From positions 9,223,008 to 9,287,007 of the forward strand of contig OX422192.1 in the NCBI GenBank assembly GCA_949130485.1: DNA of 64,000 bases, in the 5' to 3' direction. A model generated the notes under the pieces. That model saw only the letters and a program-made list of their open reading frames with translations. It was not told where the DNA came from and did not search any database. This document shows, piece by piece, positions 29,670 to 57,893 of the stretch (positions within the stretch are counted from its first letter, which is position 1; each line of letters opens with the position of its first letter). Position numbers and translations under genes: made by a program. The stretch comes from Agelas oroides. Lineage: Eukaryota > Porifera > Demospongiae > Agelasida > Agelasidae.

Positions 29670-29725
<56 letters not shown>

Positions 29726-31747: not shown

Positions 31748-32879
31748 CTATGATGCCTGATGATAACCACTGTCCTCATACCTACCATCGTCTAAAGTAA
31801 AGAACTCCTCTAGCTGCCAATGAAGAGTCTCAAATGTCGGTCGGTTTTCTTGCTCTTCACGCCAGCAGTCCAGCATGATGTTGTAAAGCTTGTCAGGACA
31901 GTCCATGGGACGGGGCATGCGGTAGCCTCGCTCAGTGGCCTCTACTACCTGTCTATTATTCATGCCGGGGTAGGGTGTGCGACCGTAGGTGATGATCTCA
32001 CAAAGCACAACACCAAACGACCATACGTCTGATTTGATGGTAAATCTGTTGTACAGTACAGCTTCAGGGGCTATCCACTTGATGGCGAATTTTGCTCCTG
32101 TATTGGCCCTAATAATGTCATCAATCATGTTGGCGGGACTAAAATTGGCAACTCTACAGATAAGGTCTCCTCCAACCATGATGTTCCTTGCTGCAAGATC
32201 TCTGTGGATGCCATTTTGCTCCTCGAGGTAAGCCATTCCAGCTGCCACTTGTGCTGACATGTCAACCAGTTGTGGAAGCTTCAGCGATCGACCCTCCCCT
32301 TGAAGGTACCCCAAAAGACTGCACTTCACGAGCTCTGTCACTATATAAATAGGTTCCTCGCATGAGCAGACAGCATATAGTGAGATTAAGTTTGGGTGCT
32401 GAAGTTTCTTCAGTAGCTCAGCCTCTTGCAGAAACTCCAGGGGGGACATGGTCCCTGGTTTGAGCACCTTTACAGCTATAGAGGTTGTGCTGTTCCACAA
32501 TCCCTCCCAGACTTCACAAAATTGCTGCCCATCTGGCTCCGCAAATTGTAGCCTCTGAGTCAGTTGAATCAGCTGTCGGTCAATCTCCCATTTATCAGAG
32601 GGTACACAAGGGTAGCGAAGGTTGACACACAACCCATCTGCCTGCTGTTGATAGTAAGCCACCAAATCAAAAATGGTTTTGAAGGTGGCGTGAAAAGTCA
32701 CAGAGAAAGTTCCATTCTCAAGCATTTTGATGTAATAATGCCGGACTTTTTCCTTGTCACGGATCGAGAGGGCGTAATACCCCAATGTTCGGGTGCTGTC
32801 TCGCACAAGAAATGAGCCATACTGGTTGCAGCTCAGCAGTTTCTCAGCCTCCATACTCATAGTCGCACCAAAGTACCAT
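31748..32879 (-). CDS. SH2 + Src-family pseudokinase exon
   Basis: One uninterrupted exon codes for an SH2 domain (starting [17 protein letters not shown], with the phosphotyrosine-binding Arg in FLVRDS) and a Src-like kinase domain. Retained features are the beta-3 Lys ([13 protein letters not shown]), the alpha-C Glu (FLQEAELL), [15 protein letters not shown] and [10 protein letters not shown]. Lost features are the glycine-rich loop ([12 protein letters not shown] instead of GxGxFGEV), the DFG motif (NFS) and the activation-loop Tyr (region [11 protein letters not shown]). The domain is therefore predicted to be catalytically inactive or severely impaired. The C-terminal tail has two Tyr residues in [12 protein letters not shown]. 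Packing SH2 and kinase into a single exon is unlike the multi-exon Src genes of vertebrates. Confidence 0.9.
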
Positions 32880-35800
32880 CTTCGTGTGTAGTAAGTGGTG
32901 TGTGTGGTGAGGTGGTGTATGTTTGCATTGCACATTCCATGTCAACTTCAAATGAAAAGAATTTTGGCACATAATACATTCTTAGGGTGATTGGCAAAAG
33001 AGCCCTTTCAACTACATCCAAATTCACTCACTTCCACTTTTAATACTAGTGAGATGCTGCACCATCCTGGAGCTAGCCTGAGCAAGCTTATGGTCTCATA
33101 CCCAGCTGGATATAACTACAGAAAATCCGTTTGGTAACATTGCGCGCCTTTCTTGGGCTTTTGCACACATTAGCAAGGTTTGAATGCAGCTGGTGCTGAC
33201 CATATATGGAAGCTCAACTAAAATGCCCACATGTAGGTGACCACACCTGCTGACAATGCAGCTCTTAATTTGTCAAATACATGGGCATGGGCCGAGCTTC
33301 ACACTCAAGCCATGAGCTATCAGGGCTGGAATCCCTGCTGTGTATGAGTGGTCTAGCTTGTCATTCATGCCCAGTGCTTTATACCTAAAGTGTAGATAGT
33401 ACTCATTCTACTATCTATACCTGAAGCAAACCTTGCCTATAGCATATGCCTGTAGTCACCCCCTGCCTTGTTGTCACTCGCCAGCCTGCCTTGTCACATG
33501 ACCATCACACTCATAGCATAGATTTAGAAACAGGAAGTTGCCGTGTGTGCTGGAAATGCATTCAACTTTAGTCGTCTTCACTGCCACTTTCACGCTGATG
33601 CTACACTAACAGTCTGGCAGTAGCCCTTCACTCTTGTCACATTTGCATGGACATTCAATCTTCGGGAAATATTTCAATGCGCTCATTTGAAAATACGGTA
33701 AGTGGTCGGTCCAAGCATAGATAATAGGCTCTATTATCTCTGGTTCAAGCAAGCAAGCAAACACACACACGCACGTTGCAATGAAGTGATGCTAGTGTGG
33801 GGCTCGCCTCAATAACTTACTCCTCAGCATCTAGATTCTCAGCAACATAGTTGCTTGGGATGCTGCCCTCCTTGCTTGTCTCCAATGACTGGGCAAACCA
33901 CCACTCTCCATCTGTGCTGATGATGTACATGAGGTCTCCCTTCTTGAAACTCAGACCATCATCTGTCCGACTGTCATAGTCATACTTTCCCACAAACAGG
34001 GGGTAGTTTGCAGGCTCCAACTATATCACAAATATAAGTTAGTTATATCAATTATGGCAGCTGTACATGGAGCCATCCAACTATCTATGGACATCTATAT
34101 TAGTCTAGATACAGTACCACTGATGTCACATGTAGAAAGTAAAAACTAGCAGCTAAATTTACTTAGAATAGCGCTTTGCTGCTTTAACTTTCATACTCAT
34201 GATGGTCCTCACTAACAGTAACATAAAGTCAACTAACCTTATTAAGTTTAGCTGGTATGGAAATTAGATTACCAGCACAATTACTGACAACACAGCGGTA
34301 GCTCCCTTCATTGGACTTCTGCATAGGGATGGTTAGTGTAGCACCATCAGACCACTCTGCATCACACGGCTGCCACTCCTCACTCCCATGCTCTTTTTCA
34401 ATCGGTTTCCATTGCCATTGGAAGCTCAGAGGTTCTGTTCCAGTGGCTTGAATGGTGAACATCACAGATTTACCTGGAACAGCATCATTTAAATCTTGGG
34501 GATGAGTGGTGATTCTGGGAGGATCAGCTACATAAAATCATGGAAGTATAGGAGTGACACACACATTACATATAAATTATTAATTTTTCAATTCATACCA
34601 TCAAGCTTGCCACTTTTTGGAGGCTCAGCTACACAAAAAACAACAAAAATTAACACGTTATGTGGGTGTATCATTCAATTTTGCACTCTAACCATGGTCA
34701 CTGCATTAGGTTCTTACCAACACTAAGGTTTGCTGGTTTGGAAGTCCAGCTATCAACATCATTGCTGATGACACAACGGTAGCTGCCTACATGTGACTTC
34801 TCCACACTGGGGATTGTTAGTGTAGCCTCATCACACCACTCAGCATCACATGGCTGCCACTTTCCACTTCCCACACGCCACCTCTTTTTTGGCTTCCACT
34901 CCCACTGGTAGCTCAGGGATGTTCCAGTGGCTTCAGCAGTGAACATTGCAGGTTTGCCTAGAAAAACATCCTTCAACTCTTGAGGATGAGTGGTGATTCT
35001 GGGGGAATCATCTATGTGTAGAATGCACAAAAAGCAAATGGCGCTTCTTATAAACTGTTGAAATTGTATTCTTACCAACACAAAGTTGTTCTTCTGGTTG
35101 AGATGTGATTCTTGGCTGCTCAGCTAGAGGCATAGAAATAAAACACAGTAGGAGTGATAAATCGTTATTGCTGCATGAAGTATAGAGACATTAGTTGTTG
35201 GCCCTTACTAAGTAATTCAGCAAGGTTGGAAGTCAGGTCACCAGCATAGTTGCTGACAACACAGCGGTAGCTTCCTTCATTAGACTTCTGCACATTGGGA
35301 ATGGTTAGCATAGCACCATCACACCACTGTGTACAACATGACCGCCACCCTTTTTCAAGTGGCTTCCACTGCCACTGGTAGCTCAGGGGATTCGTTCCAA
35401 TGGCTTTGATGGTCAACTTTACATATTTCCCTCGAATGGCACTCTTTAGTTGTGAAGTGATTTCAGGAGGCTCAGCTACAAGCAACAGAAACAAAACACA
35501 ATATTATGTAATGCCTGGTATGGGAATGACAATCTCAGGTTAGCATTAGGTATTAATTGCTGCATGGTTTCTTACCGACACTAAGTTTAGCTGGATTGGA
35601 AATCTGAGTAGCAGCACTGCCATGAATGCTGACAGCACAGCGGTAGCTTCCTTCATTGGATTTATCCACACTGGGGATGGTTAGTGTGGAGCTGTCTGCT
35701 CCTGGGAACCTCTCCACACCACATGACTGCCACTCACTGCCATAATCCATGGCTGGCTTCCACTCCCACTGGTAGTTTAGCGGTTGTGTCCCAGTAGCTT

Positions 35801-38800
35801 CAGCAGTGAATGTCACAGGTTTGCCTGGAATAGCATTCTTAAAATCTTGCGGATGAGTGATGATTTTTGGATGCTCAGCTACGCAGAAAGAAAATGTGGG
35901 AGTGACACGCACTCTACCCGTAAGCATTAATTGTTGGATTCTTACCGAGACTAAGTTTAGCTGGTTTGGAAGCCTTTTTACCGGAACAGTTGCTGATGAT
36001 ACAGTGGTAGCTCCCTTCATTGGACTTCTGCACACAGGGAATGGTTACTGTGGGCCTGTCTGCTCCTGGAAAGCTTTCCAAATCACATCGCTGCCACTCC
36101 CCTTGTTTAGATCCTTCTTCAGCTTCCACAGCTGGCTTCCACTCCCAATGATAGCTCAGAGGTTGTGTTCCAGTGGCTTCAGCAGTGAATGTCACAGGTT
36201 TACCTGGAATAGCATTCTTAAAATCTTGCGGATGACTTCTGACTCTTGGAGTGATCATGGGTGGTCCACCTGAGAAAGGCAGTGGCACAGGTGCATGATG
36301 GAGACATAAAGTGAGGAAAGTTACAAAACATTAGAGCTTATCATGTTGCACATGAAAACTGTTGAATTCTTACCGACACTAAGTTCTGCTGGATTGGAAG
36401 CCTGACTACCAGCACAGTTGCTGACAACACAGCGGTAGCTCCCTTCATAGGACTTCTGCACACTGGGGATGGTTAGTGTAGCACCATTACACCACTCTGG
36501 AGGACATGACTGCCACTCCTCACTCCCACCCTCCTCCTTGCTTCTCCTATCCTCCTTCTCAGCTGGCTTCCACTGCCACTCATAGCTCAGGGGGTCTGTT
36601 CCTGTGGCTTGGATGGTGAACTTTGCAGGTTTCCTACAAACAGCATCTTTTAACCCTTGTGGATGAGTGGTGATTCTGGGAGGTTCAGCTACGTACATGT
36701 AGAAACAAACACAGGGTGTGGGTATAACACGAACATATCACTCTAGCTTTAGACATTATAATTGTTGGATTCTTACCGACACTAAGTTTAGCTGGATTGG
36801 AAATCTGAGTAGCAGCACTCCCATGAATGCTGACAGCACAGCGGTAGCTTCCTTCATTGGATTTATCCACACTGGGGATGGTTAGTGTGGAGCTGTCTGC
36901 TCCTGGGAACCTCTCCACACCACATGACTGCCACTCACTGCCATAATCCATGGCTGGCTTCCACTCCCACTGGTAGTTTAGCGGTTGTGTCCCAGTAGCT
37001 TCAGCAGTGAATGTCACAGGTTTGCCTGGAATAGCATTCTTAAAATCTTGCGGATGAGTGATGATTTTTGGATGCTCAGCTACGCAGAAAGAAAATGTGG
37101 GAGTGACACGCACTCTACCCGTAAGCATTAATTGTTGGATTCTTACCGAGACTAAGTTTAGCTGGTTTGGAAGCCTTTTTACCGGCACAGTTGCTGATGA
37201 TACAGTGGTAGCTCCCTTCATTGGACTTCTGCACACAGGGAATGGTTACTGTGGGCCTGTCTGCTCCTGGAAAGCTTTCCAAATCACATCGCTGCCACTC
37301 CCCTTGTTTAGATCCTTCTTCAGCTTCCACAGCTGGCTTCCACTCCCAATGATAGCTCAGAGGTTGTGTTCCAGTGGCTTCAGCAGTGAATGTCACAGGT
37401 TTACCTGGAATAGCATTCTTAAAATCTTGCGGATGACTTCTGACTCTTGGAGTGATCATGGGTGGTCCACCTGAGAAAGGCAGTGGCACAGGTGCATGAT
37501 GGAGACATAAAGTGAGGAAAGTTACAAAACATTAGAGCTTATCATGTTGCACATGAAAACTGTTGAATTCTTACCGACACTAAGTTCTGCTGGATTGGAA
37601 GCCTGACTACCAGCACAGTTGCTGACAACACAGCGGTAGCTCCCTTCATAGGACTTCTGCACACTGGGGATGGTTAGTGTAGCACCATTACACCACTAAA
37701 GTCTGCAGACTCCTCATAAAGAGCATCATTTGCAAAAAAAAAGTAGGCAGGGTTGCTCATGTTTGTCCCCATTATGAAACCCTGAATGCAAGGTGGCTAA
37801 TTGGTAGCTATTTGGTAGCCTCATTCCCAGGCCTCCCCCGTTTTTGTTCTTCTGTTCGGTTTGTGTCCCATATAATACAGAGAAGCGGAAGAGCTTCCGT
37901 GTATTCAAACCAAAAAACAAAAATCAGGGAGACCTGGGAACAAGGCTAGCTATTTGGCTCACTCCCATTCACTTGAAAATCTGATGAAGTGGTGGATTCA
38001 CGTATTTTCACTCACCCCCAACTTTACTACTATGCTTCTTGATCTGAAACCCAAACCTTCGGTCCACTTTCAAAATCTCACATCTCGTCATAACTTACTC
38101 CTCTTCTTCCAGACTCTTCCTCTCGGCAATATAGTTGCTGGGGATGTAGCCCTCCTTGCCTGTGTCCTTCAACTGAGCAAACCACCAGTCTTCATAATCA
38201 GTGCTGATGATGTACATGAGATCTCCCTTCTTGAAACCCAGATCATTGTCCACCCCGCTGTTGTAGTCGTACATGGCCACATACACGGGGTAGCTTGGCT
38301 CCAACTATACCAGCATATAACAGTTAGCTACATAAATTATGGCAGTTGTACATGGAACCATTCAACTAGCTAGAGATGCATAATGACCAACTTTGGAGTC
38401 AACACATTCTGCTACCAACTGTTTCAAGCTACACATGAACTGTTTAGAGCAATGAAACATTAATTATATATATACTGTAAAAACAAATTTGCTGTTTTAG
38501 CAAAATATTTGGTTACTATAGTAGACAGGATTTTGAGAAGGAGGGTTAATAGATGTCTGTTGTGCATGTATGTATAAGCATGCAACACTAGGGGGATCTG
38601 GGGGCATGCTCCCCCAGGAAATTTTTTCAAATTAGATTCTCTGAGATGGCTTCTGAGGTCATTTTGGGAGAGAAGCAGAACCGTGGTAGATACATGGCCC
38701 GCAGAGTATTTGATCCAGTTTTGGCTGTGTCTTATCCATGTATGGACATTTCCTAAACAAGCTGACATTGAATTTCCACAGGAGAAGCTATAGTTGGCAG

Positions 38801-41800
38801 ACTGCCAGACAGCAGGTGGGGTGACGGATGGTGAAACAGTATGCAGAATTCTGGAATTATATCACATGGAAGAGCATCAAGCTTATATATAACAGAAAGA
38901 TGACTAGCCTACCATAATTTAATGTAGGCTGGGAACGATGGGTGATGCCATCACAGATTCCACCACAGTTGCCATCTTGGATGATGTCATCACAAATTCC
39001 ATCACAGTTATGGATGGGATGACACTTCCTTCGTTCAAACCAGCATCAAGTATGATTTCATCATGGGGGGATTTATCAGATGAAGAGTTTATTAAAGCAA
39101 TATTGATGATGCCTATGCTCAAGTGGTACACTGGAGACCCAATCTATCTAAAGTCCCATCTGGAGCATGTGGCAAGCGATTTGTAACTGAACTTACCCGC
39201 CTTTGCTGTGGAATCTGACCTGGAAACTATTGCACTGAAGGCTGCCATGACCATACCTCCGTTGATGCTCCAAAAACCACATGCTAAATCGAAAACACAC
39301 GACCACATCTCCTGTCTCCAGCGCAGATTGAGACTCTGGGAGAAGGGAGACATCATAAATCTTCTTAGAGAAAGAAGAGCCCTGCAGAAGTCACTCACTA
39401 ACACTCAACTACGAAAAGGTGCAGCAGATGATGCTGCAACAGCCTGCAGATTTTCGAAGTTGATGATGGAGGGAAGAGTGAGAGCAGCTTTGAAGCATTT
39501 TTCCAACAACTCACACACAGGTCTTCTAAGCCTTGATGAAATCATTGACAGCACATCGGGAAAGACAGTTAGAGATGTCCTTGAGGACAAACACCCAGAC
39601 CCACAGCCAGCACACCCAGAAGCACTCTTAAGAGATGCGAACAATGAGGATTTCCATCCAGCTATCTTTGAGAACATCACAGGTGAAGTGATTCGGGCTG
39701 CTGCTCTTCACACGCAGGGTGCTGCTGGACCCTCCGGACTCGATGCCCTTAGTTGGAGAAGATTATGTACTGCCTTTGGCCAAAAGTCGAATGATCTGTG
39801 TGCAGCCCTTGCGGCAGTCGCTCGAAGGATATCTACTACATACATTGATCCATCCGCTCTGCAGGCCTACACATCCTGTCATCTCATTCCTCTTGATAAG
39901 TGCCCTGGAGTTTGCCCTATAGGAATAGGAGAGGTTGTGTGAAGGATCATTGGAAAGGCAGTCATCAAAATTGCGAAGTATGATCTTCAAGAAGCAGTGG
40001 GGGCAACCCAGCTATGCGCTGGCCAAGAAGCTGGTTGCGAAGCAGCAGTCCATACCATGGAACGGATCTTTGCTGATGAAGATACAGAGGCAATTATCCT
40101 GGTAGATGCAACAAATGCATTGAACTGCCTGAACAGACAGGTGATGCTACTCAATTGTGAAACAGTCTGTCCTGCGCTGTCACACATTCTCATTAACACC
40201 TATCGCAACAACTCACAGCTATTCGTCGATAGTCAGTGTATACTTTCAAAGGAAGGTACTACACAGGGTGATCCACTAGCCATGGCAATGTACACCATTG
40301 GAACTCAGCCATTGATCCGCAGACTGGATGGTATTGCTAAGCAAGTATGGTATGCTGATGACTCTGCTGCTGGATCAAGCCTGGAGACTTAGGAGGTGGT
40401 GGGATCTGCATGCTGGTGAGGATTGGTCCACTCTATGGATATTTCCCAAATGGCTCCAAGACACATGTCCTAACAAAACCTCACCAGGTTGAAGCTGCAA
40501 AGGAGGTATTCAAAGATACTGCAATAGTTATCTCGACAGAGGGAAAGCGTTACCTTGGTGGAGCAGTTGGTACCTCCTCCTTTATACGTCAGTATGTTGA
40601 AAGGAATGTAGAGTGTTGGGTGAATGAAGTGGAAAAGCTCAGCAAGTTCGCCCAGACTCAACCACATGCAGCATATGCTGCCTTCACCCATGGGCTATCT
40701 TCAAAGTGGGAACTACGTAGCTCTTAAGGGTAACTGATTGGGAAAAGAACCAGCTTGACGGCATTCTGGAATCTTTAGAGAAAGCCATCCGATCACGGTT
40801 TATCACTGCACTCACAGGGCAACCTCCTCCAGGAGAACATACACGGGAGATGTTAGCACTACCATGCACTTGTCGACCGAATCATCAATCAAGACCATCG
40901 GCTAGATGGCTGTCATGCAGTTCAGCAGAGCATCAAGATAAGAATAAACGCCAGAAGCAGAAGGAAGGTGCCAAAAACCTCCAACGCATTCTACCACCCA
41001 CTCTTCAATGCTCCATGGAACTCTCTATCAATTGTTTTCGATTCATGTACTTAAGAAATTTAGTTTCCTGTAACTAGGCCCGTATGAAGGCGGAAAAACA
41101 ATTGTATCTCGAGAACCACACTACGCATGAAGACGAGACTTGCACCGTTACGTTGGTAAGGACCTGTAGATTCCAATGATACCAGTATTATTGGCCTATT
41201 TCGTAGCTGGGAGTTTCCACGGCGAAAAAATACGTAAATCCACCGTCCGATCATTGATGGAGCAACCTACTCAATTTTCAGCAACTCCCCTCAGCGCCCA
41301 AGGCAGCTACGGTGACGAAGATCAGGCGTGCAGCAGCAGGGTCTTGCAGGTTTCCAACAGTGCAGAAATCTTGCCGAGATTTGCTTCAGGAAGGGAACAG
41401 GAAGCGGCATCCGAAAATACTTACCAAACGTTTCGGACTGTTACGCTAATCGCCCCTAGCGCGAGTGGGGATTGACGCTCGAGCTCCATTTTTCAGTCGT
41501 CGGATACGGTGGACTCCGCCTTCCTTTCCATGGCATAAACGAGTATCTGCGTGGCTTGGTCTCCGTGTACGAGCGTCCGATTAGCAAGTTGTAGTCCGGT
41601 TTCTGGTCAGGGTGATCCCCCAGTCAAGAGGCGGGCGGGCGGGTTACTTCATTAATGTCATTATGGCACTTAGTGACATTACCACAAGAATTCAGGTTGT
41701 AGGCACACGTGGTTAAGTACACATACACGTTCGGGGCCGTGCGTTCAGCTCTCCTTCCGTAGACTCGCGTACAACAGAACTTTGACCGAGACTGAAAGAG

Positions 41801-44800
41801 CCCAAAAATAAGTACATTAGCCTATGACAAATGAAAGTTTCACAATCGCTTGAGGGACAAAAGGAGCACTAGATACAACTCACCTGTAACAGTTTCGAAG
41901 GCACGACGTGATCTGTGCACACAACACTCTTCTGCGCATGCGCACTACCAATAATGGCCAAAATTAGCGAAATCTGATGCGGGCGGAGGACCAGAAACCG
42001 GACTGAGCAGCATAAGCGCGAAGTAGCATGAAATCAAACTTCCTGTAACCTTCTAGCTGTAGAGTATGTACTTTTTCCATTCTATTCTCTGTTCCAGCTG
42101 CTGCCACACCGCTCAACTGAGATAAAATGACACGGACATCCGTATACTTCTCCGTTTCATCCGTGGCAAGGAATGTTTCCGTAAAAGTATGCGGACGTGT
42201 TTCATATCCACCTACGGGTATTATAGTATACGAAATTAAAAGTAACGGTGATAAATTCTATCGCAGAAAATCCATGCGGGCGGCTGATGAAAAACTAATA
42301 ATCAACGAATTAGGGCCTAAGTTCGCGCGTTTCCAGTGCGAGCAACAAAAACCTTGGCGGTGGCCAGCGAACGAGACTATAGTAATTTTGTGTGCATGTG
42401 TTTACGAACACAATCGACGACGGAGCTAAACCAAAAGCCCACTAAGGCCCTTCCAACCGGTATTCCTGTTTCTGGTCCGGGGGTTTCCCTGGCATTGACG
42501 CGGGCGGGCGGGGACTTAGCAACCTAGAAACCAAGTACTTCGACATAAAACACTGCAATTCACTACGCCATACACAACAGCCAAGTGAGATAACTACAAA
42601 AAGAATGAATAAAACGTACTGAAGCCTACAAATATGACAGACACCTTTCCTATTTTGCTTAACTATTTTAGTTTGCTAGGCTGATGGCGATCGATTTACA
42701 ACTCACCGTGAATCCACCATACTGCGCATGCGCAGAAGTCGAGTTGCTGAAATTGTGTTAGGCGTAATTATTGATGCGGGCGGAGGACCAGAAACAGGAA
42801 TACAAGTTGGAAGGGCCTAATAGCATGCCCAGAAGGCGCTCGATACGGGGCGTTTACACGCATGAGAAATACCTATGTAAGAACTTGAGGGTAAAAGAGG
42901 GGGGAGGGCGTTTGCTCGAAGGGGGCGTATTTTCGGGAACTTACGGTATATTAGTCAAAGTTGCTCAAACGCCTCTATGAACCATATCAGTCATTATCGA
43001 GTGCTTCCATGAGCAACAGGACCGTTAACTTTGCTGGAAAGCATCGCTAAAGTATCAGACTGGCAAGTCGCTAAACGGGCAAATCGTCTATCTTCTGACT
43101 TCGATTATAACATTATTCATAGCGGATACGCCCCCGGCCGGAAGCTCAACTCAGCACGTGTTTTGGTAGCTTACCGTACAGCAGCAGCTGACACAAAGCC
43201 AAGGTCAGGTGGTATAACGGAGCTTTAAAGACCATGGATCTTCCCCTCAGCCTCCCCCCCCACCTTTCTTCTCTCTTACTATTATTCCTAAAAAAAAACA
43301 AAAAAAAAAACAGGAACAAGTCACAAAAAAGTTTTCTGAATGAAAACAAGCGCGTGTAGGGATGGAACCCTCAAAAACCATCCAAACAAGATGGGAACGA
43401 CACCACAACACTTTCACACCATCCCTACATCTTGTGGCATTTTGACAACTATGCACAAACTCTCAACATGCACATTAGCCCCAAATAAACAAACAATGCA
43501 CTCAGCACTGCTCGCTCCACATGCAGCCTTCCGCATACAAGATATCAGCCATGTTCAGCAGCAATAAAATTTCACAACATAACTGACACTCCAACAGCCC
43601 ATACAGACTCAGCACTGCTTGTGCACTCCACAGCTTCTGCATACAGGACAATGCTTAGTAGGAATTACGTTGCTGCCACCCACATGCAACACAACTCACT
43701 CTCCATGCATGTCAACATGCACTGCACACCCAACCCACTGCCTTCCGCAACCCTTCTATGCACACAACTAACACAGGGCTATTTGGCAAAATGGCACAAG
43801 ATGTAGAGATGGTGTGAAAGTGTTGTGGTGTCGTTCCCATCTTGTTTGGATGGTTTTTGAGCTACATGCGCTTAATTGTTTTCATTCAGAAAGCTTTTTT
43901 GTGACTTTCAAGGTAGGGTCTTATCAACGCATTGCCTATGCAAATGTGGTGCTTGTAAATCATTTTGTGAAAGGTTTACTTAAGTATCAGCTCCCACTGC
44001 ATGAATCTTTTCCAGCACTGCATTCATAAAATTTGCATAGTAAGGATAGTCACGCAACTGTAGTAACCAAATACTTAGCTAAAATAACAACTTTGTGTTT
44101 GCAGTGAATCTAATTGCATTTTTTATATGTATAGTCAGACTTTGTGGAGCCAATGAAATTTTAGTGCATGGCTAATTAAATTCGAGAAATCTCCCTTTGC
44201 CTGCTTCCGGGCCTTTGTATTCTCCCAACACTACTAAAGGCCAGCTAACCTCAGGTTCAGTTGGATTGGATGTCTGGCTACCAGTGACTGTGAGAGGCTC
44301 AGCTACACAAAAGACAAAAAATCATGACACGCATAGAAGGATATGGATTGGAAACACAATGATTTTCACATACTATCAGTATATATCCACATTGCACATG
44401 ACGTAACGACGTAACTTAGAATTGAGGTGACAAATTACTTTTACAAGCTGTTCTTCAACTTGGGCACAGTAAAAAACAGCACAGAAATGTTGTGACCAAA
44501 AGTATGCCGCTTGTGTTGAATGTTGGACACAAAGATGCTAAAGCTAGCGTAGTAACAATTTTTGACGGACATCAACAAAGTCTTTGCCTGTTATACCGTT
44601 TAAAGCAGCTTGTTGGCATTTGAAAGATACTACTGGAAGCCCACTTCCTACTTAGTTCCACTAATTGTTGCTAAATGCCATATTGCAGCACAGTAAGCCC
44701 AAATCTGACCTTTGACCTTCAATGACATGTATTCTTAGTGCATGGGCTATAAATATCGGGTTTGTTCACACTTCTTTACTTTTGCCCTGATGACAACTGA

Positions 44801-47800
44801 AGCATTCAGTCATAAAAGTTGGCAAAAGTTTTTTCTGATTTCCACTTGGTAACACACAATCTCCATTATGCAGAAGCCAACTGAAAAGTCACTGAAAATA
44901 ATGGATTCTTACCAACACTAATTATAAGTTTGGCTGGATTGGAAGTCTGGCTACCAGCACAGTTGCTGACAACACAGCGGTAGCTCCCTTCATTGGATTT
45001 CTCCACACTGGGGATGGTTAGTGTGGAACTGTTTGCTCCTGGGAACCTCTCCACACCACATGACTGCCACTCACTGCCATAATCCATGGCTGGCTTCCAC
45101 TCCCACTGGTAGTTTAGCGGTTGTGCCCCAGTAGCTTCAGCAGTGAATGTCACAGGTTTGCCTGGAACAGCATCTGTCACCTCCTGAGGATGACTGGTGG
45201 TCATTGGAGGCTCGGCTACATGTAGAAATGAAGCAAAACATGTTTTTTTCCTTACATTAGGTATCAGTGTATGCAAATTCTTACCAACACTAAGTTGAAT
45301 GGGTTTGGAAACCACTCTACCAGCACAGTTGCTGATGACACAGTGGTACCACCCTTCATTGGATTTCTGCACACTGGGGATAGTTAGTTTAGCACCATTG
45401 GACCAGCTTGTATTACATGGCTGCCACTCCTTACTCCCGCTTTTCTCCTCAGCTGGCTTCCACTGCCACTCATAGCTCAGTGGATTTGTTCCAGTGGCTT
45501 GGGTGGTGAATGAGGCAGCTGTTCCTTGGACAACTTTGCTCAGGCATTTGGGTTGGCTAGTGACCTTGGGTGGTTCATCTAGACAAAACGAAATGGCACA
45601 TGTGGCTAATACATACTATTCAAACTTACCAAAGTGTGCATGAAGCTTACCAAAGTGTGCATGAAGCTGTACTTTGAGGTTTTCCTTGGCCTTCATCTCT
45701 TGCACTGTGGCGTCCCTCTCCAACTCTGCTTGCTGCTTCTGTTCCTCAGCATACTGCAACCTCTGCTCTAGTTTAGTCATCTGAGTCGTCAGTTTGACTA
45801 GCTCCAACAGCTGTTCTGGAGTACCAGCAAATAGCTGCTGTTTCTGTAGTTTACTGTTAAGGTGTGCTGCTGTTGCTTCTTTCTCCAGCAGGAAACTCGA
45901 AAGAGTTTTAATCTCTTCACTGAGATGATTGATTTTAGCATCATAGGCTTCAATCTGCTTTGACTTGAGCTCTAACTGATCTTTCATACTGGTTAGTTGT
46001 TGCTATGGAGAGGAACAAAGTGTCAATCACACATACAGCAGCTACTAGCCTTATGGTAGCATGTATAGAGTTATACACAAGGCAGCTATTGAAGGGTGTT
46101 ATTCACCAACAGCAATAGTAGTTTGTTTAGTAGAGGCACTTGTCATATTATAATATATAATAATGTAATAGATAATGCATGGTAGCAATAACCAAGATTT
46201 ATAGTCAATAACCACCCAACTCTGAGGGTGGAGTCTGAGGACAAGGATGGTTATTGTAAACCATAAATCCCAGACTAACATGCATTATGCGTTATATTCT
46301 CCAACCTGATTAGTACTTGTAAACATACCAAGGTAGTTTACACTGTAAACAAAGTAGCTAATAGGAAACACCAACTTCCTGTGGTATAATTATGAAACAT
46401 AATCTACAACTTCTTGTCAGTAAATGGCAAATAATTATTACCTACCTGTTACTATAGAATTTTTATATTACCTCATTCTATTTTCATTTTATTCAACATT
46501 CATAGGAAATGATAGTGATGGAAATGCGCAAAGTTTTGCTCATTGCTGCACAGAAACATTACCTGCATCTCTTTTTTATCTGACGTAAGAAGCTGCACAA
46601 TCTTGCTGACTTGTTTCTTTTCAAAGTCGTAAGAATAGGCAAGCTCTTCCTTCTCCTTCTGCAGCTGTATCACTTCATTGTGTTGCTTCTTCAGTTCCTT
46701 CCGAGCTTGTGATAACTTTTCTTGTCTGGCTTGGACTTTTCGCTAGGCAGATTGGAGTTCCCATTCCTTTCTTTGTAGCTCTTCTTTCAATTCTTTTATC
46801 TTTTTTCTTTTCCTGTCAATTTTCTTCTGTAGAACCTGGTTGAGAACCTCATCTTTTTCTTGCATTGCACACAACAGTTGGCACTCCCGTTCTTTGATTT
46901 TTAATTCCCTTTCAAGGCTGCTCTTTACATGGGAAATCTTCTCTACATCTTCCCGCAAGTCTTCAAGCCTAGTCATGCATGACTTTGTTTTCTCACCTCC
47001 TTTGGCTTTGGATTCCTGTAAGTGTCTTAAACGCTCCTCTGCATCTGCCAACTTTCTGCGGTCTTGTTTAAGATTACCTCTACGCTTCTGAATTTCTTGA
47101 TACAGCTTGGATGCAGTTGCCTATACAAGTATAATTATAAGGTAGGCCTTGTGAAGAGTGAAGAATCCTATTCTCTTAGATGCATTCTTGTCATCTTACC
47201 TCCACTTCTTGTTGAGGAATGTTTTCCAGCTGATCCAAAGGGTCGTTATCTGGCAACTTGGGAGGAGGAGTTCCTGAGTTAAAGATATTAAATAAACACA
47301 ATTAATAATGGAATAAATCACTATTCAACCAACCATGCTTTTGTGCTAGTTCAGAAGCAAGACATCTCATCCCCATCTCCACCAATGCCTGGACCACAGC
47401 AGACCATGTGGAAGTTGAATTTTTCTGCCACTCTTCAAGCATCTCAATACGACACCTCTGTAAAGTTGGGTAGTTTGCTTCGATGGTCTTCAATTTTGGT
47501 AGTTTAATTCCAAGGCAGAGGCCCAGCGGTATCCAATCAGTGACCTCATGCAGCTCACTTTCAAGGTCACGCACCTCAGGGACTGAGCACAAAAAAGACA
47601 GTAATTTGTGAATGAGTGCTTAACAATGTGCTTAAAATTAAATTCTTTATGATAATTCCTGCTTGAATATCCTTACCAACAGTGAGGCTGGCACACTGTG
47701 AAGTTTCACTCTCAGCACAGTTGGAGACCACACACCGATAGTAGCCTGCATTGCTCGCCTTGACACCCCTCACTTGAAATGTGCCACCTTCACCAGAGAG

Positions 47801-50200
47801 GTTCTGCCACCCATCCTTCTTCCCAAACTGTTTCCATTGCCACTGGTAGCTTAGAGGAAGTGTTCCAGTGGCTTGGACTGAGAATGCAACTGTCTTCCCT
47901 GGAATAGTGTCCTTCTGGCTTGTTGGCTGAGATGTAATCTTAGGAGGTTTGGCTGCATGCAAGGATGAATGAAAATATTATGGTTAAGTACCACATATAA
48001 TGAGCATAACCACACCCCCAAGATGCTCATAAGAGGTTAGTGCTGCAGGTTTACATTGGCTTACCTTTGTTGAATGGCTCACTGCTTCACCCTTGAGGTT
48101 CAAGGGAAGAACCAGACATGAGTTGACCACATAACCTTTAGTACAGGCTTAAAAAAATAAAAGTACTGCCACGTACCTACTATTGTCTGCAAGGAAAGGG
48201 AGCCCATAAACTGTAATACAAGAAAAATAAAGTGCTGCCCAGTGTTGAGATCCGTTAGACCACCGCATATAGTAGCTTCATAGGCTTGAGCACTTTTATT
48301 GTTTACAAAGCACCTACTTCAGATCAGTTAGGTAGACATAACATTACTACTGCACAGCTGTATTAGTAAACGGAAAACGTGTGAGCAAACACGGAGACCG
48401 TTTGTATTTTTCTCATTTAGCACCACTGTCCCACACTTGTTGGTGAACCAAAGTTTCATTCCTAGGGTAGGTGCACCATGGCACTAACCAATATATGCAC
48501 TCAGATTTGAGATCCAATCCTTCCTCTGGCCTGTGTATTAACTTAATTTATTTATTTATATTAGTGGATCCTTTAATTCGCATCTCGGGATTTAATAAGT
48601 ACCACTTATAATTGAAACATAATAATTTGGCCTTAGCCTGATGCCCATTCCTTCAGAAAGGATGCCACCCTAATTTTATTAATGCTTTACTGTACTTTAT
48701 TAATGTAATAAAAACACATAAAACAACAGTGTGTCTTTTACAATAAAATTAATTTCTGCTTATCAACACACTCCACTGCTGAAGTATGAAGGGAATTCCG
48801 TGGGAGATCATTTACCACTCAAGGAAGTACAAACAAATTTTGTGGAGCGTATCTGGTTAGTCAATGGCTGCAAATATTTGTGGGGAAAATGTGTTCTTAC
48901 TACAAAGTTGATACAGTGGAACCCCACTTAACGGACACCACTCAGCAGCAGACACCCACAATATAACAGACAATTCCGAAAGTCCCGACTGTCCTTCCAT
49001 TCACTTCAATACTTAAGCACCCCCTGAATAGCGGACACCCCGCTACTCCGTATAACGGACAGTTTACGTGGTCCCAATTGTATGCAAACAATATTCAATG
49101 ACCCCAATTTAGTGGACACTCGTCAACCTCTTCAGCAAGATTGTCCACCATCACTGCTGGCCGGAGTTACAAACTTGACAATAGATTAGCGCTGTTGCTC
49201 GTAATACTAGCCTCTGCTTAGACTTCCCTGCCAGTGTACAGCAAAGGAAAGCTCTGAAAACATGGCCACGTTGTGCTCAACAGCCCAATTTATAATACGC
49301 CTACCGGAAAATATACCGGAAGCCCTGAGTTAGGGACACCTTGTATAAGGGACCAAATGTTGGTTCCCAATGGTGTCTGTTATAGAGGGGTTCCACTGTA
49401 TACTGTAGTTATCCTGTGAGCACAATGAAATTAAAGTTTGTTGCCATGCACAGAAAGTACAAATGAATGTTATAAACCACAACGTCATATAGTTAGCTAT
49501 CTAACAGGTTTATTATGTCAAATTCAGGGATGAGACTGCTTTGGGTAAAATAGTAAGGTGACGTTTCCAGACAGTGCAGTCTGACTCATGATGAACACTG
49601 TAACACTAACTACACTGGAAGGTACATACCTCCCTCCTGATACAGAGGCCCAAAGTCAAACAGCCTGCTGTCCTTCCAGTGGGTCACAAAAGTAGAATAG
49701 TTTTCTGATGTCACAAGATGAAGTTCTGCTCCCTTCACTATTTTTCGACTAGGAGAAACAAGAAACAAGTCTAGGTGGACTTTGACAGTTAGTTTGTTGT
49801 TAGGCGATTCTGTCTTCAGATTACGTGAAAGCAAAGACTGCAGCTGTGGCTCCAGGACAGATGTCACCTCTTCAGTTGCAAGGACGAAGTTCTTCAAACA
49901 TGACCCAGAGGAAAAGACAACATGAAAGAGTGGGGACTGCTCAATATAGAACATCTCCACGTGGTAGACCCCATAATCAACCAAGATGGGAGCTATAGTC
50001 TTTGAAATCGACGAAAGCGTTGTACTGACGGGGGTACCAGAATGGCAGAAATTTAGGACCGGGCCTTCCTTAATGGATCCGATGTTCGTATTCTCTCCAT
50101 TCACCAGCACTCTTGTTCTCAGTAGAAACAAGTCATTATGGTAGCTGGTGTGGATGTTGAAGTTCGGATTGACGTCTATTTCGAAACGCTGCTTCGCCAT
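31748..50200 (-). CDS. Ig-Death-coiled-coil-SH3-SH2-pseudokinase gene (unrecognised architecture)
   Basis: Minus-strand exons with matching splice phases form one long gene: N-terminal domain (50200-49630), Ig (47952-47677), Death domain (47582-47334), linker (47273-47200), coiled coil (47120-46563), coiled coil (46002-45651), two Ig exons (45578-45285, 45215-44913), then alternative 3' parts. Route A uses a mini-exon (44302-44250) and SH3-a (38304-38099). Route B uses the Ig cluster (37470 to 34238) and SH3-b (34020-33821). Both fit the SH2-pseudokinase exon (32879-31748). By phase arithmetic both routes give whole-codon totals, about 1355 and 2168 residues. No signal peptide or membrane helix is visible, so a cytoplasmic Ig-containing signalling scaffold is the simplest reading. 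A TAG at 46745-46743 interrupts the coiled coil. The locus could instead be two or more tandem genes; transcripts would decide. Confidence 0.6.
32880..33820 (-). other. Intron between SH3-b and SH2-pseudokinase exons
   Basis: Phase 2 intron with donor GTAAGT (33820) and acceptor AG (32880). No exon or mobile element was recognised inside. Confidence 0.6.
33821..34020 (-). CDS. SH3-b exon
   Basis: Sixty-seven codons (phase 0 in, phase 2 out) encode a complete Src-type SH3 domain: [18 protein letters not shown], then EWWFAQS and IPSNYVAE. The conserved ALYDY-equivalent Tyr residues, Trp pair and PSNY motif are present. The exon end (GAG GA) joins the SH2 exon to recreate AEEWYFG, the sequence found at this junction in Src. 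Confidence 0.9.
34238..37470 (-). CDS. Cluster of Ig-domain exons
   Basis: Eight full Ig exons: 37470-37147, 37079-36777, 36688-36374, 36269-35946, 35878-35576, 35475-35209, 35011-34718 and 34527-34238. Two mini-exons lie among them, 35123-35076 and 34628-34599. All are phase 1 to phase 1 except the last (phase 1 to 0), which sets the frame for SH3-b. Each full exon follows one plan: [11 protein letters not shown]-like start, AxTGTxPLSYQWxWKP core, a Cys, [17 protein letters not shown], VVSNCAG, and LSVG at the end. The I-set-like domains share unusual QWxWKP and WQPC motifs, so they arose by local duplication. The first two full exons are copies of 36269-35946 and 35878-35576 at an offset of 1201 bp. 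Confidence 0.85.
34599..34628 (-). CDS. Ig mini-exon, 10 codons
   Basis: AG acceptor, [10 protein letters not shown] coding stretch, then a GTATGA donor, phase 1 to 1. It keeps the Ig-exon opening but lacks the domain. Whether it is spliced into mRNA is unknown. Confidence 0.5.
35076..35123 (-). CDS. Ig mini-exon, 16 codons
   Basis: Codes [17 protein letters not shown] across the junctions: the Ig-exon start and end are joined with the whole domain core missing. Both splice sites (AG / GTAAGA) and the 1-1 phase are intact. Confidence 0.55.
35571..36496 (-). repeat. 926-bp direct repeat, copy 1
   Basis: Nearly identical to 36772-37697 at a constant offset of 1201 bp, with only a few substitutions seen (for example at 35986 against 37187). 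Flanks differ sharply on both sides. Confidence 0.9.
36772..37697 (-). repeat. 926-bp direct repeat, copy 2
   Basis: This copy ends inside an Ig exon at 37697. The truncated Ig exon 37575-37697 keeps its donor but has lost its 5' part and acceptor. Confidence 0.9.
37575..37697 (-). pseudogene. Truncated Ig exon at duplication breakpoint
   Basis: Matches the 3' part of the Ig exon 36688-36374 but breaks off upstream of the TLTIPSV stretch. No acceptor remains, so it cannot be spliced as a normal Ig exon. Confidence 0.8.
37816..37948. mobile_element. Foldback element with perfect 9-bp target duplication
   Basis: The ends are TAGCCTCATTCCCAGG and CCTGGGAACAAGGCTA. The flanks GCTATTTGG (37807-37815 and 37949-37957) are identical. 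Inner sequence around CCCCGTTTTTGTTCTTC is shared with the element at 61180-61308. Confidence 0.9.
38099..38304 (-). CDS. SH3-a exon
   Basis: A second Src-type SH3 exon, phase 0 in and phase 2 out, parallel to SH3-b: [48 protein letters not shown], and a GAG GA/GTAAGT donor. No SH2 exon follows before the Ig cluster. Its only phase-compatible downstream partner in the window is the SH2-pseudokinase exon at 32879. Confidence 0.85.
38305..38930. other. Intron sequence upstream of SH3-a
   Basis: No feature recognised. It separates SH3-a from a reverse-transcriptase fragment on the opposite strand. Confidence 0.5.
38938..41060 (+). mobile_element. Decayed retroelement with reverse transcriptase
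   Basis: Plus-strand frames 38938-39186, 39208-39942, 39997-40392 and 40410-40727 are pieces of one RT-containing protein. RT boxes are visible: [27 protein letters not shown] and the catalytic [10 protein letters not shown]. An in-frame TGA (39940-39942) and a frameshift between the YADD box and [10 protein letters not shown] (about 40392-40410) show that it is inactive. The YADD box and the lack of visible LTRs, protease or integrase suggest a non-LTR-type element, but the clade is not assigned. It lies antisense within the intron between the mini-exon 44302-44250 and SH3-a. Confidence 0.75.
41593..42004. mobile_element. TIR element related to the 42446 element
   Basis: Ends AGTCCGGTTTCTGGTC and GACCAGAAACCGGACT are perfect inverted repeats of 16 bp. 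GCGGGCGG-rich sequence sits just inside at both ends. No coding region was found. Sequence at 41061-41592 is unassigned. Confidence 0.7.
42446..42817. mobile_element. PIF/Harbinger-like MITE with TAA target duplication
   Basis: The 372-bp element has about 33-bp terminal inverted repeats beginning GGCCCTTCCAAC and continuing into ATTCCTGTTTCTGGTCC. TAA occurs on both sides (42443-42445 and 42818-42820). A 3-bp TWA target and GG(G/C)CC-type ends are typical of PIF/Harbinger. The inner motif is shared with 41593-42004. Confidence 0.75.
42978..43230. repeat. Dispersed repeat, copy 1
   Basis: Shares CAGGACCGTTAACTTTGCTG, GGCAAATCGTCTATCTTCTG and the following stretch with 60449-60985. It directly precedes a long-TIR element, as a related block also does near 62 kb. 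Confidence 0.7.
43316..43908. mobile_element. Long-TIR MITE, copy 1
   Basis: Inverted ends of roughly 120-130 bp start ACAAGTCACAAAAAAGTTTTC and include GATGGGAACGACACCACAAC. The unique centre is shared with 62088-62715. No transposase is present. The right arm has decayed somewhat. Confidence 0.8.
44250..44302 (-). CDS. Collapsed Ig mini-exon, phase 1 to 0
   Basis: [18 protein letters not shown] lies between an AG acceptor and a GTTAGC donor. It joins the beginning and end of an Ig exon with the core deleted. Its phase (1 in, 0 out) equals that of the last Ig exon before SH3-b (34527-34238), and it is the only exon upstream of SH3-a that can feed it in frame. Confidence 0.55.
44913..45215 (-). 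CDS. Ig exon (Ig3)
   Basis: Phase 1-1 exon coding [12 protein letters not shown], then [16 protein letters not shown] and [20 protein letters not shown]. It is very close to the 35878-35576 Ig exon, which shows that the two Ig groups exchanged or duplicated recently. Confidence 0.85.
45285..45578 (-). CDS. Ig exon (Ig2)
   Basis: Phase 1-1 exon with [43 protein letters not shown] and [16 protein letters not shown]. It follows the second coiled-coil exon directly. Confidence 0.85.
45651..46002 (-). CDS. Coiled-coil exon 2 with duplicated donor
   Basis: About 117 codons of heptad-rich sequence ([40 protein letters not shown]). The exon ends at an exact 21-bp duplication that creates two consecutive donors (TTTG/GTAAGC at 45651, TTTG/GTAAGT at 45630). 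Both are phase 1, so either keeps the frame and adds or omits 7 residues. Confidence 0.8.
46563..47120 (-). CDS. Coiled-coil exon 1, interrupted by TAG
   Basis: A 558-bp phase 0 exon with heptads across its length ([20 protein letters not shown], then [20 protein letters not shown] after the stop). TAG at 46745-46743 is the only in-frame stop, and the frame stays open and coiled-coil-like for 60 codons beyond it. A CAG-to-TAG change would explain it. The TAG itself could serve as an acceptor (CTAG/CGA), so an in-exon splice removing it is conceivable. Confidence 0.75.
47200..47273 (-). CDS. Linker exon
   Basis: Codes [20 protein letters not shown] and a few more residues, phase 1 to 0. It connects the Death domain to the coiled coil. 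Confidence 0.7.
47334..47582 (-). CDS. Death-domain exon
   Basis: Eighty-three codons, phase 1-1. The pattern is that of a Death domain: [21 protein letters not shown], then [32 protein letters not shown]. Death domains mediate homotypic assembly in apoptosis and innate immune signalling. The donor (GTTGGT) is weak but gives the right phase. Death next to Ig resembles the N-terminal order of MALT1, though no paracaspase is present. Confidence 0.85.
47677..47952 (-). CDS. Ig exon (Ig1)
   Basis: Phase 1-1 Ig exon coding [46 protein letters not shown] and SLTVG. It is more diverged from the other Ig exons, consistent with being the oldest module. Confidence 0.85.
47953..49629 (-). other. Intron 1 of the Ig-Death-pseudokinase gene
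   Basis: Holds a pogo/Tigger-like element at 48914-49398. No other exon or repeat was recognised. Confidence 0.6.
48914..49398. mobile_element. Pogo/Tigger-like MITE with TA target duplication
   Basis: The ends read CAGTGGAACCCCACTTAACG and, inverted, CAGTGGAACCCCTCTATAAC, flanked by TA on both sides. Length is 485 bp with no open transposase. Such ends and a TA target are typical of the Tc1/mariner-pogo superfamily. Confidence 0.8.
49630..50200 (-). CDS. N-terminal exon of the Ig-Death-pseudokinase gene
   Basis: ATG at 50200 opens 190 codons and ends in phase 1 with a GTATGT donor, matching the first Ig exon. The domain ([20 protein letters not shown], later [20 protein letters not shown]) has alternating hydrophobic strands, and I do not recognise it. 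There is no signal peptide. Conserved-domain searches would be needed to name it. Confidence 0.7.
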
Positions 50201-50710
50201 TCGAGAAGAGACAAGCTGCTATGCTACTTCAAAACTTAACAGCCTCACCCTTCTTTACAACTTGCTAGCTCAGCAAATAAACATTATTCAGGCCCACCCA
50301 CACAGCCGCACAAACCAGTGCGCACAGACGGCGCTATTTAACATTCTGTGGCTCGAACATACCTCTCCTTATCATGACCAACCTCATGATGTCCCACCAA
50401 GGTTCATGGAGGATGAGTCGGGGACATGCAGGCACCCACTGCTCTGCACAGTGAACTGTTGGTCACCATGCGGGGGCCCACCTCTCTCTCCCTCCTTCAT
50501 GCGTATGCAATCATCCCATCAACCCCTTAAAGCACATAGCTATATCGTAATCCATGTGTTTGGGGGAGCAATGTTGGTGGAATACCCCCCAACATTGGCC
50601 CAGAGGACGCAGTCCCTCCTCCAAACACCCTACTTTATATAGAGTGACGACAAACCGCCCCACTAAGTAACTGATAAACTATCACAGCGTCACCGTTTAC
50701 AAATCACAAG
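50201..50710. other. Region between pseudokinase gene start and retrotransposon
   Basis: Includes the promoter of the minus-strand gene at its left end and probably the 3' end of the retroelement at its right. No repeat boundary could be identified by eye. Confidence 0.4.
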
Positions 50711-51751
50711 TCAAGACACAGATAACAGTTTTGACAGAGCAGCCAGTCTTTCCCGTGGAATACGTAGGTATAACAAATAAGCGGAGCTCTCCCACCGACC
50801 AAGGGTTTTGATGATAGAATCCTCAACACCCGCCGCCGCAGCTGTGGTCGCTGCACCGATGCGAAAACTGTGGCCCGCATAGTGTGACGGGTTCTCAATA
50901 CCGGCTACCAGCAATGTATCCCTGACTTTTGTCACAAAGGATTCTCTGGTTAACGGGCTCCCGTTGCTAAATCGAAAAAATGGGCCTGGCCCACTACCTC
51001 TGGAAGCCAAATAAGCAGCTAAAGCTGCTACCGGACACAAGCCATTATTGGTCCGTCCAATATAAATGGAAACACCTTTTCGAAAAGGATCAGTCTTTGA
51101 AGCCTTGATGTTCACTTGTGCCACTGACGGACTCTCCCGACTATCCAACGTTACATCCCCATAACTGAGGTGGGCACCAGGATCATACTCCCCTGCTGAT
51201 GGGACTACAATCTCACCAGAACGAAGGAATCCGAAAAAACAAGTGCAACATGCCGCCCACAACATTATATGGTCGCTATTCCCAGGGTCCCTTTCCCACA
51301 CCAACCGCAGTCGCTGCAATATGGACGGAGTAATCGGAAGCCGAGTGCGAACAGTTGTTCCTCTTTTTGCTTGGTCACTTTTTATCCCTCTCAGGACATA
51401 TTCCAGCAGTGGCAACGACTGCTCAAATGGATCACCAAAACCTCCTATTATCTGCAGATGACGTACACCAGATAAGTAGCATTTGATTGTTTGGTGTTTT
51501 AAATTGCTGTTTGCCAGGCAAGCCACATACTGGCACAAGGTTGTCTCTGTTGCTGGGATAGGGACAATATTCAGACGCTGGCAAAATTGTACATACGGTT
51601 TTTTCGCTGCACCATATGAACGCAATGTGGATGGAGCCAATGAGTGCTTTAAATAGTACTGAACCAGCTGGTCCATTCTGGCGATGTCCACGCTTGTGGA
51701 TGGATTAAGCCCCATACCAGATCTTGAGGAACTGCATGTGGAATGTGGCAT
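50711..51751 (-). CDS. Tyrosine recombinase of the retrotransposon
   Basis: 346 residues. Catalytic-site candidates of the phage-integrase fold are visible: Arg in FFGFLRSGEIV, Lys in VNIKASKTDPF, HSFRIGA, GRWES, and a nucleophile Tyr in AYLLYLRIP. The N-terminal SAM-like part carries LAPSTLRSYGAAKKPYVQFC. It would integrate circular cDNA into the genome. It overlaps the RT frame by 103 bp in a different frame. Confidence 0.9.
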   Translation of the reverse strand: MPHSTCSSSRSGMGLNPSTSVDIARMDQLVQYYLKHSLAPSTLRSYGAAKKPYVQFCQRLNIVPIPATETTLCQYVACLANSNLKHQTIKCYLSGVRHLQIIGGFGDPFEQSLPLLEYVLRGIKSDQAKRGTTVRTRLPITPSILQRLRLVWERDPGNSDHIMLWAACCTCFFGFLRSGEIVVPSAGEYDPGAHLSYGDVTLDSRESPSVAQVNIKASKTDPFRKGVSIYIGRTNNGLCPVAALAAYLASRGSGPGPFFRFSNGSPLTRESFVTKVRDTLLVAGIENPSHYAGHSFRIGAATTAAAAGVEDSIIKTLGRWESSAYLLYLRIPRERLAALSKLLSVS

Positions 51752-53499: not shown

Positions 53500-53919
53500 T
53501 ATTAATAATACGATTGCTACAAGTTTAAAACTGGGGAGAGTAACAGTGCCATTCCCCCTCCACTACAGGTGACTACCTGCCGAAACAGCGAAGTTCACAC
53601 TCAGCCCTGCCGAGTGGAGAGCAGTCACCCCCAGCAGATGGTATTTGAACACTGTACTCTCCCCCTTATAGACTGTTAAAGGTAAAATATCCTTAATGCC
53701 CAGTCCACATTTTAAAATTTTATTTATTATTTTTGCTGTCATTTTATCACTTAGCTGGATGAAAACAGTATGAACATGGATATACAATGGCTGTTGCCAG
53801 AGCTAAACAGCTATCGATACATGATATTACTAATGAGACTCATAACACTGTCATATGCCAGTTTTCTGATAACCCTGCGATTGGGGCACCCTGGGTCATC
53901 CCGTGGTTGCTGGCCCCTG
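53500..53919 (-). other. Spacer between gag and RT frames
   Basis: About 420 bp without a convincing conserved frame. It may be an untranslated spacer or hold an intron of the retroelement. Confidence 0.4.
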
Positions 53920-57892: not shown

Positions 57893-57893
57893 T

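Follow-up and report, generated by a model that had tools for sequence, protein, structure and literature searches.

A predicted Death-domain gene with a Src-derived pseudokinase C-terminus in the sponge Agelas oroides, probably present as a damaged copy beside an intact tandem sister

Domain layout of the locus and its tandem neighbour

Here we have examined a 64,000-nucleotide stretch of the genome of the demosponge Agelas oroides (assembly GCA_949130485.1, contig OX422192.1, hereafter C10, positions 9223008-9287007; this whole stretch is called the window), together with its relatives in the genome searched (259 Mb, 141 contigs). On its minus strand the window carries a predicted gene that unites a Death domain, coiled coils and immunoglobulin (Ig) domains with SH3, SH2 and tyrosine-kinase modules. 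Searching pieces of it against Pfam and joining the exons in a splice model recovers the order put forward by an initial annotation of this DNA, namely Ig, Death, coiled coil, Ig, SH3, SH2 and kinase fold, behind an N-terminal domain that was described as unrecognised and that indeed has no Pfam match in exon 1. The model comprises 18 exons with GT-AG sites and compatible phases, running from the ATG at 50200 to a stop codon ending at 31748 (Table 1, with Pfam E values); the Death match scores 25.1 bits against a curated cut-off of 22.6. Junctions lie in phase 1 from the N-terminal domain through Ig and Death to the linker, in phase 0 from the linker through the two coiled-coil exons, in phase 1 between coiled coil and Ig, in phase 0 between the last Ig and SH3, and in phase 2 between SH3 and SH2. 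The coiled-coil stretches match no Pfam family above its cut-off.

The predicted protein appears to be cytoplasmic, as first proposed. No signal peptide or membrane helix was found in it, the N-terminus is not hydrophobic, and no hydrophobic segment is present, the best 19-residue Kyte-Doolittle mean being 1.2, within the kinase. Furthermore, Ig domains usually carry a cysteine at the B-strand position, here assigned by pattern, and in all 11 whole Ig domains of the window this position is V, T, A or I, with the F-strand cysteine kept; the canonical Ig disulfide would thus be missing, which fits the cytosol.

That the architecture exists is best supported by the intact frame of a minus-strand paralogue on C10, which starts at 9311150, 24 kb past the window end, and runs down to ~9293100 with the same domain order. 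Its 16 predicted exons use corresponding splice sites in identical phases and encode 1905 aa without a stop, laid out as N-terminal domain, Ig, Death, linker, two coiled-coil exons, eight Igs, SH3, SH2 and kinase fold (Pfam: Death 6e-6, SH3 4.6e-17, SH2 3.2e-22, kinase 3.4e-87); past the kinase fold it soon ends and lacks the tail present in the window copy and in the Src copies of contig C17 described below. Protein identity between window and neighbour is 67-81% in five segments and 61-65% in three coiled-coil segments (n=8), each of the eight having a dN/dS within 0.24-0.46 and a dS within 0.33-0.70, and conservation runs past the ATG (85% over 49621-50339). Such agreement in order, splice sites and phases, combined with these dN/dS values, is more than chance would give, and this argues that the fusion layout has been maintained as a working gene. 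A partial second N-terminal-domain piece with a stop lies in the neighbour's first intron (C10:9309876-9310043).

Table 1. Features of the predicted minus-strand gene and of the stretch it spans (positions are those of the window; a slash marks an exon-intron border).
Feature	Position	Strand	Evidence or remark
Exon 1: start ATG, N-terminal domain without assigned family, ~190 aa	49630..50200	-	Open from ATG to donor AGGGAG/gtatgtac, phase 1
Exon 2: Ig domain 1, phase 1/1	47677..47952	-	Pfam Ig_3 2e-12; sites kept in neighbour
Exon 3: Death domain, phase 1/1	47334..47582	-	Pfam Death 1.9e-5; 63-81% identity to 11 paralogues
Exon 4: short linker, phase 1/0	47200..47273	-	Sites kept in neighbour
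Exon 5: long coiled coil, phase 0/0, TAG inside	46563..47120	-	Stop visible in translation
Exon 6: second coiled-coil exon, phase 0/1	45630..46002	-	40 genome matches; sites kept in neighbour
Exons 7-8: Ig domains 2 and 3, phase 1/1	45285-45578, 44913-45215	-	Pfam Ig_3, two stretches, 6.5e-23
Gutted Ig exon, 53 nt, phase 1/0	44250..44302	-	Donor CCTGAG/gttagctg resembles last-Ig donor
Putative repeat-rich intron	38400..44150		DNA search of own genome
SH3A, extra SH3 exon, phase 0/2	38099..38304	-	Identity 66% to SH3B, 78% to C17 Src SH3
Half-Ig of Ig exon array	37522-37695	-	Array includes the 1201-bp tandem duplication
Seven whole Ig exons, phase 1/1	37470-37147, 37079-36777, 36688-36374, 36269-35946, 35878-35576, 35475-35209, 35011-34718	-	Array 34718..37695
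Last Ig exon, phase 1/0	34238..34527	-	Donor AATAAG/gttagttg; junction to C-terminal module
SH3B, SH3 exon, phase 0/2	33821..34020	-	Pfam SH3_1 1.8e-13; 83% to C17 Src SH3
SH2 and pseudokinase exon, phase 2 to stop	31748..32879	-	Pfam SH2 2.2e-18, PK_Tyr_Ser-Thr 1.7e-81

A probably Src-derived module that has lost catalytic motifs

The resemblance of the C-terminal part to Src, already remarked on, extends to the genome's own Src genes on C17. The window SH2-kinase is about 74-75% identical to C17:7507197 and 66% to C17:7509094, and SH3B is 83% identical to the SH3 at C17:7510700, whose open reading frame (ORF) holds MGNHCPVC, a motif that we take to be a possible myristoylated start. Both window and neighbour have the SH3-SH2-tyrosine-kinase order of the Src family in Pfam searches and splice models, and the SH3-SH2 splice yields AEEWYFG, matching the aligned Src chain; the SH3 exon comes after an Ig exon in both models, in place of a myristoylated MG N-terminus directly before SH3. 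The Src cluster itself (C17:7507179-7517071) has three SH2-kinase exons, all of which keep GAGQFGEV, the VAVK or VAIK lysine, HRD and DFG, as well as two matches to SH3. No SH3 belonging to the exon closest to the captured copies (7507) appears in the C17 loci examined.

As the initial annotation had it for the window gene, the kinase fold reads as a pseudokinase, and it does so in both C10 genes. DFG has become NFS in both; the window copy keeps the VAIK lysine and HRD and has lost the glycine-rich loop, and the neighbour, with VAVM for VAIK and HRN for HRD, has lost all three catalytic motifs. Both also retain, in SH2, the arginine of the FLVR-type motif. Against C17:7507, the SH2-kinase dN/dS of the two C10 copies is 0.27 and 0.28, compared with 0.18 between C17:7507 and 7509. 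The shared NFS and these ratios together indicate that catalysis has been lost and the sequence kept under constraint: to judge from sequence, this is a constrained pseudokinase, somewhat less constrained than Src. A tree groups window, neighbour and C17:7507 with support of 93/93, just below the tool's own mark, on branches of 0.35, 0.19 and 0.017, respectively, the window branch being the longest SH2-kinase end branch. We favour one Src capture for both C10 copies because NFS is common to them; the tree leaves their sisterhood undecided.

Elsewhere on C10, kinase-fold copies at 8702201-8703079 and 8708946-8709881 carry HRN for HRD and NFR for DFG, and apparently represent an independent lineage of Src-like pseudokinases. 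Dense kinase-domain matches, ~32-40% identical to the window kinase and many with long open frames, occur at C8:4.86-5.94 Mb, C15:1.23-1.49 Mb and C10:7.50-7.55 Mb.

Damage in the window copy

The claim of a single minus-strand frame holds for the phases of the 18 exons between 50200 and 31748, and fails at an in-frame TAG at 46741-46743, inside exon 5, so that the window copy is not one open frame. The two coiled-coil exons of the initial annotation are in part this one exon divided by the TAG, and exon 6 is indeed a further coiled-coil exon. Exon 5 was found in 30 copies in the genome; the window copy alone stops at 125 aa, the 29 others all running to 142-254 aa, with alignments that reach query residue 123 or beyond in 24 of them. 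The product of the window copy is predicted to end within the coiled coil, with only the N-terminal domain, Ig and Death ahead of it, if the stop is not an allelic variant, an assembly error or removed by splicing. A candidate phase-0 intron (CAG/gttcta...gcctag/CGA) could excise the TAG; its donor is weak and, by eye, it is without counterpart in the neighbour. Apart from the TAG, the 18 modelled exons contain no frameshift and no second stop before the end.

Rearrangements are also apparent downstream. The Ig array carries a 1201-bp tandem duplication with a breakpoint inside an Ig exon near 37697, and there are two SH3 exons, SH3B, which precedes SH2, and the additional SH3A. The phases of SH3A are incompatible with the downstream Igs and compatible only with a jump to the SH2 exon, and the gutted exon of last-Ig type fits ahead of it. 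Two frame-consistent routes are therefore available, one of 2149 codons via the Ig array and one of 1362 codons via the gutted Ig, SH3A and SH2; the TAG is codon 516 on both.

One gene or two

The distance from Ig3 to the next whole Ig is 7.4 kb in the window copy and 7.1 kb in its neighbour, and it is here that the prediction could come apart into two adjacent genes, one ending after Ig2-Ig3 and the other comprising the Ig array, SH3, SH2 and kinase under a separate promoter, the two having been duplicated as a pair. Several observations count in that direction and against a single gene: the gap is long in both copies; all Ig exons but the last are in phase 1/1 and hence interchangeable, so frame agreement across a ~7-kb exon-free stretch is weak proof of linkage; a separate SH3 (SH3A) sits close to the border of the halves; and adjacent separate genes would likewise duplicate together. 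Against this, the two gaps have no common block of more than 42 bases and hence show no trace of a second promoter or first exon kept in both; ahead of the ATG at 50200, by contrast, conservation continues. With a gutted last-Ig exon and SH3A in succession, the Death half has an SH3 of its own adjacent; paralogues carry a C-terminal module after their Igs; and in the C17 loci examined no Ig exon accompanies those of Src. On balance the Death half and the SH3-SH2-kinase half very likely form one predicted gene, and we consider the two-gene arrangement unlikely.

The gap in the window is rich in repeats. At least about 46% of 38400-44150 is repeated elsewhere in the genome, and ~0.9 kb more within the window. 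The segment 38971-40863 has a 94% identical counterpart on C8 and in part one on C9; by eye it is reverse-transcriptase-like, though one of its ORFs has no Pfam match. A further segment, 41029-41583, recurs at dozens of genome places among the matches listed.

A large family with an apparently exchangeable C-terminus

The N-terminal domain has 60 genome matches, from which 56 loci were tabulated, four short pieces of counted loci being omitted. Tallies of what accompanies it drew on 87 of 150 Death, all 40 coiled-coil, all 126 Kelch and 13 of 61 SH2-kinase matches, and a smaller set (Death 52/150, Kelch 71/126, SH2-kinase 9/61) gave identical results; with source lists holding the best 150 of 596 and 125 of 440 candidates, all family counts are lower bounds. 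Death lies downstream in at least 48 of the 56 loci (8/56 are without Death among the matches listed) and the second coiled-coil exon is found in 36. A Kelch propeller occurs within 10.3 kb in at least 36/56; a first Kelch within 45 kb raises this to at least 38/56, and we take the lower figure because two of the 38 are doubtful, with the Kelch 28.7 and 42.9 kb away. Death, coiled coil and Kelch stand together in at least 29/56 loci, SH2-kinase follows in at least two, and in a member on C22 a PDZ domain follows. Ig, Death and coiled coil occur in this order at all 12 Death-centred loci examined, some of them near-duplicates and window and neighbour included.

Where the junction could be followed by eye, the last Ig connects to Kelch in phase 0 through a GAG/gttag donor in three of three members (L063, L068 and L075, two of them close relatives), and neither window nor neighbour has a Kelch match at E up to 1. 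With phase-0 last-Ig junctions alike before Kelch and before SH3, the C-terminus looks exchangeable at a fixed junction. Amplification of the family is probably recent, as some copies (C10:1401224, 1507864 and 1533227) score identically to the query.

Other SH2-containing loci on C10 were rejected as instances of the same fusion. For the SH2-kinase exons at 8749 and 8786, the closest N-terminal-Death loci upstream (8721080 and 8761014) are followed first by a Kelch; the exons at 8749 are also preceded by coiled-coil-looking sequence by eye, and 8702 looks alike by eye. The SH2 exons at 1002, 4737 and 4804 were likewise set aside, the SH2 ORF at 4737 standing directly before a Kelch ORF. This last locus (C10:4735501-4739000) presents another SH2-Kelch pairing, in which one stop separates the SH2 ORF from a proline-rich Kelch ORF that shares its frame; an upstream 142-aa ORF there has no Pfam match.

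The N-terminal domain itself has no Pfam relative, and searches of the Protein Data Bank (PDB) gave best E values of 1.2 and 0.45. A resemblance to TRADD-N was suspected by eye, a relation that family searches and profile comparison could not show: TRADD-N matches none of 12 + 9 members carrying the domain, and a profile comparison with human TRADD-N gave p 0.15. PF09034 was matched nowhere, controls included, and PF13820 (NCOA6_TRADD-N) has one genome match, on C14 (24.3 bits, above cut-off), with no convincing alignment to the N-terminal domain.

Surroundings in the window

Directly upstream of the gene start, on the minus strand, 50711-53562 holds a reverse-transcriptase match (Pfam RVT_1, 1.9e-14) and, next to it, an ORF resembling a tyrosine recombinase (Phage_integrase, below cut-off), which together we take to be a DIRS- or Ngaro-type retroelement. 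A tandem array with an ~89-base unit and copies ~95-97% alike occupies 62716-63503. Finally, 29474-30453 and 57769-58736 are ~80% identical, the former encoding a glutamine run on the plus strand.

Discussion

We propose that the window probably holds a damaged copy within a two-member subgroup of a large cytosolic Death-domain family, the subgroup having a Src-derived pseudokinase C-terminus and an intact tandem sister. The constant front of the family would comprise the N-terminal domain, one Ig, Death, a long coiled coil and further Igs, followed after the last Ig, at a phase-0 intron, by a C-terminal module that would be a Kelch propeller in most traceable members; in window and neighbour, SH3-SH2-kinase would have been captured from a Src gene and then turned into a pseudokinase. 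In such a protein the coiled coil may multimerise the chain, the Igs may act as a disulfide-free intracellular spacer, and the C-terminal module may bind a target, be it phosphotyrosine or proline-rich sites or a factor attacking Src, so that clustered Death domains would recruit Death-fold adaptors and set off an immune or cell-death response. Sensing would then fall to the propeller in Kelch members and to SH3, SH2 or the inactive kinase in Src-type ones, as phosphotyrosine reader or bait. A scaffold coupling Death assembly to SH3/SH2 recognition, as initially suggested, is thus a reasonable inference.

Several points weigh against this proposal. The window copy carries a stop and rearrangements, its Death match is modest, and its N-terminal domain is without a known fold. 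A dN/dS below 1 also averages in the time preceding any damage. Its SH2-kinase is nearer to C17 (74%) than to the neighbour (67%), which is unexpected if a single capture preceded the tandem duplication. On the side of the family, counts come from exon proximity rather than from gene models, and 16 of the 56 loci have neither Kelch nor SH2-kinase among the matches listed.

We give roughly even chances to the view that the window copy is a decaying pseudogene without function, so that only the neighbour matters. The coiled-coil TAG is unique to this copy, which also has a half-Ig, a gutted Ig, a doubled SH3, a lost glycine loop and the longest SH2-kinase end branch; set against these are the lack of any frameshift or second stop, the putative intron that could remove the TAG (weak donor, none in the neighbour), and dN/dS of 0.27-0.46 in SH3, SH2-kinase and the coiled coil past the TAG. 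That the kinase half is instead a normal, catalytically active member of the Src family joined to Igs of adhesion type is highly improbable: 75% identity to an intact Src exon and a window copy that keeps the VAIK lysine and HRD would suit such an enzyme, but the DFG aspartate is Asn in both copies, the neighbour also lacks the VAIK Lys and the HRD Asp, and the protein has neither signal peptide, transmembrane helix nor B-strand cysteines.

The initial annotation likened the protein to MALT1-type scaffolds. MALT1 is a cytoplasmic protein with a Death-Ig-paracaspase order, and Death and Ig in a (predicted) cytoplasmic protein are common to both; the order differs, no caspase-type match (E up to 0.1) appears in the ten pieces scanned, and C-termini here are Kelch, PDZ or Src-type, so kinship with MALT1 is not supported and was rejected. 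The C17 Src kinases are alike in domain order, in the AEEWYFG splice and in sequence (75% for SH2-kinase, 83% for SH3B), and differ in keeping MGNHCPVC and DFG where the C10 copies have Ig and Death ahead and NFS. Plant NLRs contain NB-ARC and LRR, neither of which was matched in the pieces scanned here. The likeness is to the MIC1 clade of these receptors, in which a common joining point near the C-terminus receives tyrosine-kinase-type, Kelch and other domains (PMC5819176, accessible text).

The nearest animal precedent is found in sponges. Death/TRADD-N proteins of Amphimedon have C-termini that include S/T/Y kinase, SH2 and PDZ and show strong lineage expansion (eLife 2021, PMC8195603, accessible text); variable C-termini and expansion are shared with the family described here, in which, unlike those proteins, Ig and coiled coil surround Death and Kelch is the commonest traced C-terminus among the matches listed, the word Kelch being absent from the main text of that paper. 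A TRADD-N relation of our N-terminal domain could, moreover, not be demonstrated. A sponge gene with Ig and CARD, one transcript of which is named by its domains, responds to microbial patterns (PMC6208332), and so is similar in joining Ig to a domain of the Death superfamily in the context of sponge immunity; SH3, SH2, kinase and Kelch, present here, go unmentioned in its accessible text. A sponge-specific Src family has been named Src-Aque1 (PMC8662651, accessible text). In literature lying largely outside subscription journals, we found no description of Death-coiled coil-Ig joined to SH3-SH2-pseudokinase, nor of a family with Kelch, PDZ and Src modules after one Ig array. The initial statement that no animal family is known with this order thus stands for the exact architecture, which appears to be new, and gives way for the general kind, which is known from sponge Death proteins with variable C-termini.

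By analogy with plants, the Src-type members might be integrated decoys in which a Kelch sensor was exchanged for a catalysis-stripped copy of the sponge's own Src, held under constraint, such that factors attacking or binding Src would trigger Death signalling; we put this forward tentatively and consider it rather unlikely as it stands. Modules of tyrosine phosphorylation and Death-domain assembly are joined here in one predicted chain, and the locus would offer a direct test case for the idea that animal immune receptors, as in plants, can be baited with inactivated versions of the host's signalling enzymes.
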